Shown one piece after another: positions 9,306 to 32,584 of a stretch of DNA of 32,584 bases (its first letter is position 1; the number at the start of each line of letters is the position of its first letter). Under the pieces are notes generated by a model that saw nothing but the letters and a program-made list of their open reading frames with translations, had not been told where the DNA came from and searched no databases. The stretch covers positions 1 to 32,584 of the forward strand of contig SVGR01000015.1 in the NCBI GenBank assembly GCA_015056265.1, given 5' to 3'. This DNA comes from Clostridiales bacterium. GTDB lineage: Bacteria > Bacillota > Clostridia > Christensenellales > Aristaeellaceae. The position numbers and the translations under genes are program-made.

Positions 9306-10706
9306 ATGGCCAAAGTAAAGATTACCGATACCATCCTGCGCGACGCGCATCAGTCTCAGGCTGCTACCCGTATGCGCATTGATGAAATGCTGCCTGCCTG
9401 CGAAATGCTGGATAAGGCCGGATACTTCTCCCTGGAATGCTGGGGCGGCGCTACCTTCGACAGCTGCCTGCGTTTCCTGAACGAAGATCCCTGGGAACGG
9501 CTGCGCACCCTGCGCAAGGCCCTTCCCAACACCAAGCTGCAGATGCTGCTTCGCGGCCAGAACATCCTGGGCTACAAGCACTATGCCGATGACGTGGTGG
9601 ATTATTTTGTCAAGAAGTCCATCGAGAACGGCATCGACATCATCCGCATCTTCGACGCCCTGAACGACCTGCGCAACATGGAAACCGCCGTGAAGGCCAC
9701 CAAGAAATACAATGGCCTGGCAGAAGTAGCCATGAGCTACACCACCAGCCCTGTGCACACGGAAGAATACTTTGTGAAGCTGGCTAAGGATATCGAATCC
9801 ATGGGCGCCGACCTGATCTGCATCAAGGATATGGCCGGATTGCTGCTGCCCTTCAACGCCTATTCCCTGGTAAAGAAGCTGAAGCAGAACACCAAGCTGC
9901 CCATCGTGCTGCACACCCACAACACCGCCGGCACCGGCGCCATGACGCTGCTGAAGGCCATCGAAGCGGGCGTGGACGTAATCGATACCGCCCTGTCTCC
10001 CCTTGGCGGCGGCACCAGCCAGCCCGCCACCGAATCCATGGTGGCCGTACTGAAGGGCACGGAATATGATTCCGGCCTGGATGAAGAACTGCTGGCCAAG
10101 ATCGCCGAGCATTTCCGTACCGTAGCCGATCGTCTGGGCAAGGATAACTGGCGCGACGCCGGCAAGGTGCTGGCCGTGGACGCCAAGGCCCTGCAGTATC
10201 AGGTGCCCGGCGGTATGCTGTCCAACCTGATCGGTCAGCTCAAGCAGGCCAATGCCATGGATAAGTATTATCAGGTACTGGAAGAAGTACCGCGGGTTCG
10301 CGAGGACTTCGGTTTCCCGCCCCTGGTCACCCCCACCTCCCAGATCGTTGGCACCCAGGCCGTGATGAACGTGCTGGGCGGCGAGAGGTACAAGATGGTC
10401 ACCAAGGAAAGCAAGGGCCTGCTCAAGGGCGAATACGGCCGTCTGCCCGCCAAGGTGAACGAAGATGTGCGCAAAAAGTGCATCGGCAACGATAAGGTGA
10501 TCACCCATCGCCCCGCCGATGATATCAAGCCTGAATTGGAAGGCTACCGCAAGGAAATCGCCCAGTATATCCAGCAGGATGAAGACGTGCTTTCCTACGC
10601 GCTCTTCCCCCAGGTTGCCACGAAATTCTTCCAGTGGCGCCAGGCCCAGCAGCTGAAGGCCGATCCCACCTCCTTCAACAAAGAAGACGGCACCATGCCT
10701 GTGTAA
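9306..10706 (+). CDS. oadA: oxaloacetate decarboxylase alpha subunit / pyruvate carboxylase subunit B-type carboxyltransferase
   Basis: This 466-residue enzyme moves the carboxyl group between oxaloacetate/pyruvate and biotin. It has the DRE-TIM metallolyase barrel with TDTILRDAHQS at the N terminus, LRGQNILGY, the lysine in ICIKDMAGLL (K174, carbamylated in the family) and metal ligands H203 and H205 in LHTHNTAGT. PGGMLSNLIGQL marks the start of the C-terminal part. It lacks a fused biotinyl domain, which the separate carrier at 7304-7681 would supply. AAAGGAG lies close before the ATG. The operon thus has both a 5S-type (OadA) and a 12S-type carboxyltransferase. It is the last gene of the operon; a structured repeat and then a terminator follow. 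Confidence 0.94.
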   Translation: MAKVKITDTILRDAHQSQAATRMRIDEMLPACEMLDKAGYFSLECWGGATFDSCLRFLNEDPWERLRTLRKALPNTKLQMLLRGQNILGYKHYADDVVDYFVKKSIENGIDIIRIFDALNDLRNMETAVKATKKYNGLAEVAMSYTTSPVHTEEYFVKLAKDIESMGADLICIKDMAGLLLPFNAYSLVKKLKQNTKLPIVLHTHNTAGTGAMTLLKAIEAGVDVIDTALSPLGGGTSQPATESMVAVLKGTEYDSGLDEELLAKIAEHFRTVADRLGKDNWRDAGKVLAVDAKALQYQVPGGMLSNLIGQLKQANAMDKYYQVLEEVPRVREDFGFPPLVTPTSQIVGTQAVMNVLGGERYKMVTKESKGLLKGEYGRLPAKVNEDVRKKCIGNDKVITHRPADDIKPELEGYRKEIAQYIQQDEDVLSYALFPQVATKFFQWRQAQQLKADPTSFNKEDGTMPV

Positions 10707-10723
10707 GACGGATATATATTTCG

Positions 10724-10841
10724 GCGGGAAGGGGGCTCTTTTAGAAAAAAGAGCCCCCTTCCCGCACCCATCCCCAGAAAACCTTTACTGGATTTATCTT
10801 GAACTTAAGAAACCAACTGTTTCCCAGTGAAGCTTGGGGAA
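10724..10841 (-). repeat. structured repeat element, copy A
   Basis: Read on the minus strand, it opens with a 5-bp hairpin (TTCCC/GGGAA, 11-base loop; 10841-10821). The conserved middle AAATCCAGTAAAGGTTTTC (10795-10777) and GGGGATGGGTG come next. A perfect 19-bp hairpin (arms 10724-10742 and 10747-10765, loop of 4) closes it. The stem apex is A/T and the base is GC-rich. No T run follows on either strand. The hairpin starts 18 bases after the oadA stop and the element is antisense to oadA. Other copies are at 28853-28965, 31306-31404 and 31413-31529. Confidence 0.85.
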
Positions 10842-10862
10842 CGAAAAAATGCTAAGCTGCTC

Positions 10863-10891
10863 ATGCGCCCCAGAGGGACGCATATTTTTTA
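10863..10891 (+). terminator. terminator of the decarboxylase operon
   Basis: The hairpin ATGCG-c-CCC, loop AGA, GGG-a-CGCAT is followed by ATTTTTTAT. It lies 156 bases past the oadA stop, beyond repeat copy A. Confidence 0.75.
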
Positions 10892-28798: not shown

Positions 28799-28852
28799 GA
28801 TGATCCTCCTAACAATTTATCAGCAGATGATTGGAAATGAAATAACTTGGAT

Positions 28853-28965
28853 TTTCTACCATTCTCGGAGAAACCTGTTGATTTCCTGCACCCAATGAAT
28901 TACCCGAGTTGGTTTTTGGTGGGGGTGCGGGGGAGGTATTTTTGACTCAAAAATACCTCCCCCGC
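28853..28965 (+). repeat. structured repeat element, copy B
   Basis: A 5-bp hairpin TTTCT/AGAAA with an 11-base loop (28853-28873) opens it. The shared ATTTCCTGCAC (28881-28891) and GGTTTTTGGTGGGGGTGCGG come next. A 17-19-bp hairpin of perfect arms (28927-28945 and 28947-28965) ends it, GC-rich at the base and A/T at the tip. The hairpin lies 12 bases from the end of the T-box terminator, inside the ileS leader and antisense to ileS. No T run follows on either strand. Confidence 0.85.
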
Positions 28966-28976
28966 AATACCTCAAC

Positions 28977-29198
28977 AAAAAAGACCCATCCCACGACATG
29001 GGACGGATCTTGTATCCGTGGTACCACCCAAGTTGGCGAAAAAAATCGCCCGCTTATGCATCCTTTTATCGGGGATGAATCGCCGGTTCTTCAACCGGAG
29101 GCTCCAAAGTGATCCGGCGCCGCGCCGCCTGCCGGGCTTCCACCTTGCCCCGGCTCTCTTGAAAGCGGTTCTGCGGGCCCGTCTTTTTCAACGCCCAC
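28977..29198 (-). promoter_or_regulatory. T-box leader of ileS, AUC (Ile) specifier
   Basis: On the minus strand: stem I with the distal AGAGAGCCGGGG and GGTGGAAGCCCGG elements; a specifier loop GGATCACTTTGGAG with codon ATC (29113-29111); the T-box core GGGTGGTACCACGG (29029-29016); and a terminator hairpin GATCCGTCCCA/TGGGATGGGTC followed by six Ts (29009-28977). Uncharged tRNA-Ile would pair with the specifier and with the T-box bulge, form the antiterminator and allow ileS transcription. The layout is standard, except that about 180 bases with a repeat element lie between the terminator and the ileS start. Confidence 0.95.
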
Positions 29199-29204
29199 TT
29201 GAAT

Positions 29205-30264: not shown

Positions 30265-31202
30265 TGGTTTTCCTCCATGATCTGATCCAGATCGGCCAGC
30301 ATGGCCATGGCCGCATCCCGGTTTTCCACGGTAGCGCCGCTGGCCTTCTGATGGCCGCCGCCGCCGTATTTCACGGCAATGGGATTGATATTAAACCGGC
30401 TGGAGCGCAGCTCGCACAGCACGCCCTTTTCCGTTTCCGTAAAATTCACCCAAATATCCACGCCACGGATATCCGCCATTACGCCCACCATCCCCCGGGA
30501 AATGGTAAAGGTATCCGCCTGCAGGGAAGCCATTTCTTCCTTGGTGGTGTAGATATAAGCCACATTCTTTTCAGTGAACCGAATTTTCAGCACATAGCTG
30601 GCCCGCAGCTTCATCATTTCAAAATCATCGGCATAGAGATTCCGATAGATTTCGTTGGTGTCGATCTGCTGCTCCATCAGGAAGGAGGCCAGGGCAAAGG
30701 TCTGCTTGGTCGTGGCGTCATAGCGGAAGCGCCCGGAATCAGTGACCATGCCGGTAAACAGGGATTGAGCGGCAATTTTTGATACCTTCCAGCCGCATTC
30801 CCTGGCGCAGGCGGCAATCAGCCCGCAGCAGCTTTCGAAGCTGGTGTCGGTCACCTCCACCTCCGCAATTTTTTCGCAGAAGATGTGGTGATCCATCCGG
30901 GCGGTCATTTTCGCCATCGTGTAACGTTCATCACTGATGAGATGCCGGGCAGAGGTATCCAGAATGATGGCCAGGGCATTTTCGTATACGCTGTCATCGA
31001 TCTGATCCATCTGGGAATCCGCCATAAAGCCGTAGCGCCCGGCCCCATCCCCTACCATATATACCCGCTTTTCGGGGAAATTTTCGCAGATCAGATGCTT
31101 TAATCCCACCTGACTGCCAATGGCGTCCCCATCCGGATGATGATGACGGTGGATCACGATCGTATCATGCGCTTTGATAGCGGAAAGAATATTTTCAAAC
31201 AT
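30261..31202 (-). CDS. DHH/DHHA1 phosphoesterase (NrnA-like), first copy
   Basis: A 313-residue DHH-family phosphoesterase with canonical motifs: HRHHHPDGDAIGS (residues 18-30), ILDTSARH, MDHHI, FTGMVTDSGRFRYDA, and the DHHA1 end YGGGGHQKASGA. The NrnA group degrades 2-5 nt RNA, pAp and c-di-AMP breakdown product pApA (family knowledge). Which of these is used here is not decided. AGGAGGT lies five bases before the ATG. A GGAATTCGGAATGC repeat abuts the ribosome site. It heads a two-gene unit with the second copy; no clear promoter was found in the repeat-filled 340-base gap upstream, so read-through from ddl is possible. Confidence 0.93.
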   Translation of the reverse strand: MFENILSAIKAHDTIVIHRHHHPDGDAIGSQVGLKHLICENFPEKRVYMVGDGAGRYGFMADSQMDQIDDSVYENALAIILDTSARHLISDERYTMAKMTARMDHHIFCEKIAEVEVTDTSFESCCGLIAACARECGWKVSKIAAQSLFTGMVTDSGRFRYDATTKQTFALASFLMEQQIDTNEIYRNLYADDFEMMKLRASYVLKIRFTEKNVAYIYTTKEEMASLQADTFTISRGMVGVMADIRGVDIWVNFTETEKGVLCELRSSRFNINPIAVKYGGGGHQKASGATVENRDAAMAMLADLDQIMEENQ

Positions 31203-31214
31203 ACGTACCTCCTG

Positions 31215-31248
31215 GGAATTCGGAATGCGGAATTCGGAATGCGGAATT
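31215..31248. repeat. GGAATTCGGAATGC direct repeat
   Basis: A 14-base unit GGAATTCGGAATGC occurs at 31215-31228 and 31229-31242 and is followed by GGAATT. The same motif forms the inverted repeat at 9188-9287. It lies a few bases upstream of the AGGAGGT ribosome site of the DHH gene. Confidence 0.85.
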
Positions 31249-31305
31249 GAGTTTCACCGCATTCCCTGCACATCTCCGATTGCATTTCTTATGCTTCTCA
31301 AATTT

Positions 31306-31404
31306 TTATCCCAAGCATCCCTGAGAAATCAGTTAATTTCCTGCACTCTAGAAATATCCATTTAAAAGTTTTTAGGGATGGGTGTTCTTTTTCTCAAAAA
31401 GAAC
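31306..31404 (+). repeat. structured repeat element, copy C (short hairpin)
   Basis: A 5-bp hairpin TTATC/GAGAA with one mismatch and a 12-base loop opens it. It then has ATTTCCTGCAC (31336-31346, identical to copy B) and TTTTTAGGGATGGGTG. The closing hairpin is short, GTTCTTTTT/AAAAAGAAC (9 bp, loop CTC), lacking the GC-rich lower stem of the other copies. It is in tandem with copy D. Confidence 0.8.
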
Positions 31405-31412
31405 GATCACTA

Positions 31413-31529
31413 TTCCCCGGGCTTCTCTGGGAAAATAGTCGATAGAACGGCGATCGGTAAAATCCAGTAATGGTTTTCTTTGGGAGAGCGCGAGAGGGCC
31501 TTTCTTTTTCAAAAGAAAGGTCCTCTCGC
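31413..31529 (+). repeat. structured repeat element, copy D
   Basis: A 5-bp hairpin TTCCC/GGGAA with an 11-base loop opens it (31413-31433). AATCCAGTAATGGTTTTC (31461-31478) follows, nearly identical to copy A. The 19-bp terminal hairpin (31490-31508 with 31511-31529) has one G-T pair (31498 with 31521), which pairs in plus-strand RNA but would be C-A in minus-strand RNA. It lies 13 bases past the ddl stop and antisense to ddl. Confidence 0.85.
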
Positions 31530-31542
31530 AAAAAACACAATA

Positions 31543-32584
31543 TTACAGCTTCAATTTTCCGCCCTTTTTGCCGCCGCCGATGACGGCGCCGGAAAGGATA
31601 TCGGAGGAGAAAGCAAAGCTGTTCCGTTCCTTTTCCCGGTGGGCGCGCAGGGCGCATTCCACCATTTCATCGATCTGATCGGCGTAATTCATGCCCGTTT
31701 CCGCCCACAGATAATAGGCCAGGGAGCCGGGGATGGTATTGATTTCGGTAATATAATAATTGTCGCTGTGCCGATCCAGCATATAATCGATGCGCACAAC
31801 GCCCTTGCAATCCATAGCGTCGAAAATATCCAGGGAAAGGGCCTGCAGTTTTTCCGTCAGTTCCTCCCCGATGGGGGCGGGCACAATGCGCTTGAGGCTG
31901 GCCATACCCTTGCTGCCGGAGGAACCGGCCAGATACTTTTCAGAAAAATCCAGGAATCCGGCGCCGGAATTGGGCATTTCCAAAACAGAAGCTTTCCGCT
32001 GCCCATCAAAGCCCAGCACGGAGCAATTCACCTCAATAGGCTTATCCAGCCCCTTTTCCACCAGCACCCGCCGGTCATAGGAGAAGGCCAGCTCCAGCGC
32101 TTCCTTCAGGGACGCCCGGTCATCCGCCCGGCTGACGCCGATGGAAGAGCCCAGGCAAGCAGGCTTGACAAACACAGGATAGGGCAGGGCCTTTTCAATG
32201 GTATCCATCATGCCGGCCGCATCCTTTTCCCAGGCAGAGCGGGTCACCGCGCAATCGGGCAGGATGGGAAAGCCGCAGCCCCGGAAAAACCGCTTCATGG
32301 TGATCTTATCCATGCCCACGGCGGAGCCGCCGATGCCGGTGGAGGCGTAGGGAATATCCGCCAGTTCCAGCAGGCCCTGGAGGGAGCCATCCTCCCCGTG
32401 CAGGCCGTGCATGACCGGGATCACACAATCCAGCCGGGCCACGATCTCTTCCTTGCCGCCGCCGAACAGGCCCTTGGCAGGCACATAATGGATCAGGGCG
32501 CCGCTGCCGGCGGTGAGATCCAGATGCACAGGGATAATGCCCTTCATGAAGGGATCAAAGGGAGTGTAGGTTTTGATATCCATC
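31543..32584 (-). CDS. ddl: D-alanine--D-alanine ligase, N terminus beyond the window
   Basis: Ddl joins two D-alanines for the peptidoglycan peptide, using ATP (ATP-grasp fold). About 347 residues are visible. The usual N-terminal glycine-rich start (GGxSxEHxVS) is absent, so the true start lies right of base 32584 and the Met at 32583 is internal. Motifs: MHGLHGEDGSLQGLLE, GMDKITMKRFF, FVKPACLGSSIGVS (ATP-binding loop), LVEKGLDKPIEVNCSVLG, FSEKY in the omega loop (the Tyr type of normal D-Ala ligases), and EINTIPGSLAYYLW (Mg site). A D-Ala-D-Lac specificity is unlikely given the EKY loop. The stop is followed after 13 bases by the hairpin of repeat copy D. Confidence 0.93.
   Translation of the reverse strand, partial: MDIKTYTPFDPFMKGIIPVHLDLTAGSGALIHYVPAKGLFGGGKEEIVARLDCVIPVMHGLHGEDGSLQGLLELADIPYASTGIGGSAVGMDKITMKRFFRGCGFPILPDCAVTRSAWEKDAAGMMDTIEKALPYPVFVKPACLGSSIGVSRADDRASLKEALELAFSYDRRVLVEKGLDKPIEVNCSVLGFDGQRKASVLEMPNSGAGFLDFSEKYLAGSSGSKGMASLKRIVPAPIGEELTEKLQALSLDIFDAMDCKGVVRIDYMLDRHSDNYYITEINTIPGSLAYYLWAETGMNYADQIDEMVECALRAHREKERNSFAFSSDILSGAVIGGGKKGGKLKL

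Follow-up and report, generated by a model that had tools for sequence, protein, structure and literature searches.

What kind of element do the four related, structured repeats on a single Clostridiales contig represent? The window, that is, the whole stretch of DNA analysed, is 32,584 nt long, and an initial annotation had described four copies with paired-base changes in it. It had read them as a structure under selection: a small RNA, an RNA processing or 3′-end element, or a miniature mobile element. A covariance-model search showed that the four window copies are members of a dispersed element of about 119 nt. The model, R1, was built from an alignment of 13 copies from the window's own genome, the four window copies among them, and it found all four (E-values from 1e-13 to 2e-27), bearing out both their positions and their relatedness. 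Copies A (10723–10842, minus strand; 110.6 bits), B (28851–28966, plus strand; 78.5 bits) and D (31412–31530, plus strand; 116.4 bits) are accompanied by copy C (31306–31405, plus strand; 64.3 bits), a degenerate tandem copy. When folded as single-stranded DNA, copies A, B and D had z-scores of −9.1, −7.0 and −4.5, respectively, with none of 200 shuffles as good; copy C had a z-score of −1.7, and 11 of 200 shuffles were as good.

A dispersed repeat family

The initial annotation had suggested looking for further copies, and both the window's own genome (a 2.36-Mb assembly in 176 contigs, 78% complete) and its relatives proved to hold them. A Blast search of the own genome with copy A returned five more places, 75–82% identical over 67–87 nt, plus shorter pieces. 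With R1, at least 88 raw matches at E ≤ 10 were obtained among the best 150 of 1,071 first-look candidates that were scored. The 65 matches with E ≤ 1e-4, merged over both strands, correspond to at least 48 places, at least 33 of which reached E ≤ 1e-10; these place counts are lower bounds and the R1 E-values are rough. The search was also run across 60 genomes (the own genome and 59 relatives), with the best 60 candidates scored in each. Within the genus, matches at E ≤ 0.01 were present in 28 of 29 genomes, G018 being the sole exception; their number ranged from one in G017 and two in G004 to at least 59–60 in each of the richest genomes (G000, G001, G002 and G022). R1 matched none of the seven genomes from other genera of the family (E ≤ 0.01, best 60 candidates per genome), and two of the 24 from other families of the order (G047 and G051).

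In a collection of named genomes, the exact hairpin pattern occurred in 49 stretches from eight MAGs, all uncultured. Five of these are titled as goat or sheep gut; the titles of the others (SIG375, SIG368 and SUG1264) give no sample. Phage records contained nothing matching window positions 31200–31560, and a degenerate hairpin pattern found nothing in viral contigs. Once overlaps and matches shorter than 75 nt had been dropped, 137 copies were retained, 130 of them with a scoreable hairpin. Among the 31 own-genome copies the nearest pair outside the tandem at L032 is only 84% identical, and the median identity is 65%, so there is no sign of recent bursts. The tandem itself (L032, 31–372) consists of three copies that are 87–96% identical, a local amplification.

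Watson–Crick pairing in the 5′ domain and the terminal hairpin

From 5′ to 3′, the element comprises a weak hairpin H1, a helix P, a short GAT/ATC helix, a tract considered in the next section and a terminal hairpin H3. H3 is 98.5% paired over 150 aligned matches, which contain some overlapping and reverse-strand palindrome matches, and all 18 of its pairs show two-sided changes. The paired-base changes first noticed in the window are thus real, and the view that they reflect a structure under selection is supported. As judged from the fold and the letters, H3 occupies 10724–10765 in copy A (minus strand; a 19-bp stem with a 4-nt loop), 28926–28966 in copy B (plus strand) and 31490–31529 in copy D (plus strand), where the single G–T pair pointed out by the initial annotation is present. 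Across the family, G–T mismatches in H3 exceed A–C mismatches on the element strand (45 vs 16 distinct contexts); distinct contexts were counted because one subtype carries many of them, so that counts of alignment cells overstate the bias. A G-quadruplex calls for four runs of at least three G. The common type, GGGAGAG-CGC-GAGAGGG, falls short of this with only two such runs (by eye), and other types have four.

The 5′ part of the element also pairs by Watson–Crick rules, with the best support at CNGG/CCNG. The initial annotation had placed a TTCCC/GGGAA hairpin here, which corresponds to H1. All five of its pairs show some two-sided changes, but the hairpin is weaker than H3: 68.6% of its cells are paired in the same 150 matches (78.0% for the GAT/ATC helix). 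The CNGG/CCNG pairing has better support. Helix P joins a CNGG in the region of the H1 loop to a CCNG about 35–40 nt later, in variants that include CTGG/CCAG, CGGG/CCCG, CCGG/CCGG, CTCGG/CCGAG and GCAGGG/CCCTGC. Its variable base is complementary in 102 of 121 copies, compared with 72.8 after shuffling (85 in the best of 5,000 shuffles); the simple pattern used for this count overlooked 16 of the 137 copies, and among the 19 non-complementary ones several do pair once the register is shifted. Copy B is one of those overlooked: CTCGG at 28864–28868 (plus strand) has its partner, CCGAG, at 28904–28908, and H1 of the same copy (TTTCT/AGAAA) spans 28853–28873. Since H1 and helix P have bases in common, the two may be alternatives.

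A mirror tract varies together with the arms of the hairpin

The 13–15 nt lying 5′ of H3, when read backwards, match the 5′ arm of H3, with two arm bases skipped between the purine and T-rich parts of the arm. In copy D, the tract (31474–31488, plus strand) reads TTTTCTTT-GGGAGAG and is followed by GAGAGGG-NN-TTTCTTTT. The corresponding sequences are TTTTCTGGGGATGGG, then GGGAAGGGG-GC-TCTTTT in copy A (tract at 10767–10781, minus strand), and GTTTTTGGTGGGGG, then GGGGGAGG-TA-TTTTTG in copy B (tract at 28912–28925, plus strand). The mirror score is 14/14 both in copy A, with a skip of two, and in copy B. Copy C has lost the feature: its mirror fit is 2, and its short H3 (31384–31404, plus strand) has no mirror match.

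The 130 scoreable copies represent 100 distinct combinations of tract and arm, the best skip being two bases in 80 of them, one in 12, three in four and four in four. A triad was counted as allowed if the tract base was identical to the arm base that it faced, and T facing A was accepted as well. In the lower half of the stem, the mean is 6.16 of seven allowed triads for 31 distinct combinations, vs 4.63 (sd 0.17) when tracts were shuffled among arms, and none of 10,000 shuffles was as high. For the full 13-nt tract (83 distinct combinations, 2,000 shuffles), the mean is 12.20 vs 10.43 (sd 0.11), and the observed match was again never reached. These values, like the G–T counts above and the triad counts given below, overstate independence: the copies are related by descent, and the triad rule itself had served to fit the register.

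Copies at the same gene end in different species provided 51 pairs for comparison. Both members are well registered in 42 of these, and the lower arms differ in 15, for which the tract fits its own arm better in 13, ties in two and is worse in none. If misregistered copies are included, the tract fits its own arm better in 22 of all 24 differing pairs and ties in the other two. One copy, L099:1210, displays a triple change (TTTCCTTT/TTTCCTTT/AAAGGAAA). Overall, 121 of the 130 copies follow the three-tract triad rules, purine or pyrimidine motif, and nine are mirror misfits. Reading the tract as a direct repeat instead gave a poorer match than the mirror in nearly all combinations. We regard both the anatomy of the element and the three-way co-variation as well supported.

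A putative intrastrand triple helix

The tract cannot pair by ordinary rules, because a mirror of the 5′ arm is complementary to the 3′ arm in parallel; antiparallel, Watson–Crick pairing between tract and 3′ arm is excluded by sequence. The pattern is the signature of an intrastrand triple helix and, judging from the sequences, such a triplex may form. The tract could lie as a third strand, in the lower part antiparallel to the 5′ arm, which is purine there, and in the upper part parallel to the 3′ arm, the purine arm at that level. The lower half would then be of the purine motif and the upper half of the pyrimidine motif, both best satisfied on the element's own strand. Among 109 distinct segments, with the nine poorly fitted copies of the 130 omitted, the third-strand base opposite A in the lower half is A in 122 cases, T in 37 and G in four, and the base opposite T–A pairs in the upper half is T in 543, A in two and G in one. 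This points to the element strand, since A or T below and only T above is what that strand predicts, and the other strand predicts the reverse. The fitted boundary leaves 36 G.G:C triads and 14 G opposite C–G in the upper half.

By the triplex classes of PMC4666352, the putative fold would be class I continued as class IV. According to the same paper, RNA cannot adopt triplexes of the purine motif. If this holds, the fold would be one of single-stranded DNA, and for this reason we place a DNA mechanism ahead of an RNA-based one. Our confidence is highest for the triplex, lower for its DNA rather than RNA form and lowest for the role as a polar block proposed below.

The element usually stands beside stop codons and is sometimes paired

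Flanks of 300 nt or more were available for 128 copies, and in 107 of these a stop codon on the opposite strand follows 1–25 nt past H3. When genes were called by codon usage, 103 of the 130 copies had H3 no more than 30 nt from a stop codon on the other strand; the upstream neighbour is co-directional for 75 of these near-stop copies and convergent for 26, and two have no called neighbour. H3 of copy D ends 13 nt from the stop codon of a minus-strand gene (31543–32583), and copy A is the near copy of the upstream plus-strand gene, with its stop at 10704–10706. The gene beside copy D we take to be D-Ala-D-Ala ligase-like. Among the 27 other copies are several that another copy or a hairpin separates from the stop codon (window copy C; L020 and L024), or that form the distal half of an inverted pair. 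Copy B presumably stands after a T-box-like terminator instead of a stop codon: we place it between the start of ileS (28798) and what we take to be a T-box-like leader with a terminator, upstream of ileS on the minus strand at about 28975–29200. The Rfam matches at gathering score did not include this leader. The gene end is common to a copy in another species for 58 of 128 sampled copies, and the other copy often belongs to another sequence type.

Beyond the element, 35 of the 101 near copies with a called neighbour have an oppositely pointing hairpin with a mirror tract; one of the 35 looks like chance. The proportion is 20 of 29 in G022. No far partner was detected for 66 or 67 of the 101. 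The 34 rows of inverted pairs, some of which are one pair seen from both ends, join alpha with beta in 29 cases and beta with beta in two; none is alpha–alpha, and three have an unclassed apex. The mirror tract, the stop-codon rule and the genome-wide copy number are additions to the initial account.

Terminators at gene ends with and without the element

Ortholog ends were compared for two genes, which we name, presumptively, D-Ala ligase-like and carboxyltransferase. The first has the element or a remnant of it in 3 of 27 genomes and an ordinary terminator in 15 of 27; for the second, the respective figures are 3 of 22 and 7 of 22. At these two genes, then, presence of the element is patchy. 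Terminators were classed by pattern, as a hairpin plus a T-run beginning within 70 nt of the stop codon (the first contig of G001 stops 77 nt past it). For both genes combined, this pattern was found at 22 of 43 ends without the element vs none of six with it. On the other hand, the gene of copy A has an ordinary terminator, a hairpin and then a T-run, some 20 nt beyond the element (10863–10890). Terminator replacement is therefore suggested at some genes and not at others. On this limited evidence the element may replace terminators, and for copy A an insertion between gene and terminator fits equally well. In a looser scan of the 75 co-directional near-copy gaps, T-rich hairpins lay beyond the element in 16 gaps and inside it in 10, and 50 gaps had none; one gap had both, about five of the 16 are parts of far copies, and the scan had no matched control.

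The element itself resembles an intrinsic terminator in its place, with a hairpin a few nucleotides past the stop codon. It differs in having an extra third-strand tract and a 5′ domain, and in that no T-run follows H3 in the copies with listed flanks.

A proposed polar transcription-end block and its alternatives

What could such an element do? We tentatively favour a genus-wide punctuation element of gene 3′ ends, similar to REP and BoxC, that might act as a polar block at the end of transcription by folding as single-stranded DNA. As the third strand, the tract would occupy the major groove of H3. The lower triads would be G.G:C and A/T.A:T, formed by reverse Hoogsteen pairing against the purine 5′ arm, and the upper ones T.A:T and C.G:C, formed by Hoogsteen pairing along the purine 3′ arm, with the third strand crossing between the arms at the two skipped pairs. 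The fold would arise on the element strand when RNA polymerase nears the 3′ end of the gene on a path for which that strand is the non-template one. It would trap the bubble, and transcription would stop just before the gene. G-rich non-template strands favour transcription blocks. A near copy would halt polymerases that come in from beyond the gene, and the transcript of the gene itself would be ended by a far copy in inverted orientation. Near copies without a far partner leave the transcript ends of those genes unexplained by the block model. Also counting against it are the terminator beyond copy A, the nine mirror misfits and the G opposite C–G in the upper half, as well as E. coli PIT/BoxC elements, which showed neither terminator nor promoter activity and, by DMS footprinting in vivo, no triplex (as reported in PMC4666352). 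It seems unlikely to us that the bolder claim will hold, namely that the three-strand co-variation reveals selection in bacteria, in vivo, for an alternate-strand intrastrand triplex whose third strand passes between the hairpin arms at the two-pair skip, and that one genus of gut bacteria uses it at dozens of genes as a polar end signal folded in DNA, which at some of them takes the place of the intrinsic terminator.

The comparison with BoxC, also called PIT or TMECO, deserves attention. According to PMC4666352, BoxC is a dispersed intergenic repeat with three tracts able to form an intrastrand triplex, and its inverted pairs join types A and B, as alpha and beta are joined here. BoxC is described there as class II (pyrimidine–purine–third strand), with stems of 9 nt; its distance is not fixed, and neither strand is favoured. 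The present element does not have the class II order; on its own strand, the order is third strand–purine–pyrimidine, followed by a pyrimidine-motif half past the two-base skip. This order sets it apart from BoxC/TMECO. It also has an extra 5′ Watson–Crick domain and a preferred place beside stop codons. We found no description of the composite element in the literature searched. For BoxC/TMECO, folding is clear in vitro, footprints in vivo are negative and no function was found, according to the same paper. Evolution supplies another kind of evidence in the present case: co-changing triads, tolerance of A or T in one half and T only in the other. Moreover, the site beside stop codons gives a testable function.

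Alternatively, the element could be a selfish repeat of REP/REPIN or MITE type, mobilized by an enzyme that recognizes its folded single strand, the triplex-like fold being the recognition form and gene ends being either tolerated or targeted. We consider this possible, if short of probable. Such a repeat would account for the high copy number, the subfamilies and the inverted alpha/beta pairs, for the tandem copies (C–D in the window and three in a row at L032), for the different sequence types at shared positions and for the ordinary terminator kept beyond copy A. The patchy presence at the two compared genes, in few species, also speaks for the mobile element of the initial annotation. Its niche would be that of REPs, which PMC3733652 places less than 20 bp from, or close to, ORF 3′ ends. 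REP, BIME and REPIN sequences are similar in copy number, inverted pairs and position near 3′ ends of co-directional or convergent ORFs (same paper), the position found here for the 103 near-stop copies. However, the element is longer than a REP, contains the mirror tract and lacks the GTAG/CGTC tag of the hairpin base: a search up to 6 nt from the H3 feet found GTAG in 0 and CGTC in 1 of 130 copies (GTAG in 1 and CGTC in 4 at the 5′ end of the element). There is no consistent RAYT either. Y1 transposase (PF01797, the sole family searched) occurs in only 10 of 29 genus genomes, is absent from copy-rich G022 and does not track with the copies; the four matches in G000 are fragments. A link to a RAYT is thus unsupported. 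Finally, the own-genome identities with their lack of recent bursts, and the sharing of gene ends between species, count against a selfish repeat.

A third reading, which we find rather improbable, is an RNA element: the transcript of one strand would fold, with hairpins and a U.A:U upper triplex, and would end, protect or process mRNA 3′ ends. PMC4666352 bears on it directly, as the lower half is of the purine kind said there not to form in RNA. Watson–Crick covariation and the 3′-end position would suit an RNA, and so would the G–T excess; yet this excess, together with the triad rule, favours the strand antisense to the adjacent gene. In addition, no U-tract follows H3 in the listed copies, and no Rfam family matched: above the gathering cut-off the window yielded only tRNAs, and five loci searched at E ≤ 1 gave only microRNA matches, all below the cut-off. 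Therefore, while selection on structure holds, the small-RNA and RNA-element readings of the initial annotation were not established.

It is very improbable that the element has no function, its palindromes being kept perfect by template switching at replication and its mirror being an inherited accident of a few founder copies: the copies are related, and the correction of quasi-palindromes can rewrite one arm to match its partner, but such copying yields inverted and not mirror repeats, the tract tracks the arm across the 31 distinct lower-half combinations and between species, and a similar module is seen by eye in G051, from another family of the order.

Related modules and neighbouring sequences

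Twenty stretches totalling about 327 kb, drawn from G018, from seven further genera of the same family and from 10 genomes belonging to other families of the order, were scanned for mirror hairpins. One weak mirror match and two direct matches came out; the scan overlooked imperfect hairpins of G051 that look module-like by eye. The G051 sequences have a tract and hairpin built to the same plan, as in GAAGGGTGGGGG-CCC-GGGGGAGGGAATCC (by eye). In G047 there is a looser tract-plus-hairpin version, in some printed cases upstream of apparent gene starts (by eye). Modules of this kind related to the element, L157 and L162 in G047 and L163 in G051, have other positions relative to genes.

Several other sequences recur near the element. 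A short tandem family, GAATTCGGAATGCGGAATT, is found near several elements, at about 31216–31249 in the window and also near the L006 and L009 copies. A hairpin of the form TGCGNCCY...RGGNCGCA, often beside CAACGAGAAG, lies 5′ of several copies (by eye); its sites are window positions 10863–10890 and the upstream flanks of L017, L019, L021, L023, L024, L033 and L046. In two copies with their 3′ flanks (L041, 1501–1597, and L044, 1501–1592), H3 gives way at the same point to a different palindromic sequence common to both, which looks like the insertion of a second repeat into H3.
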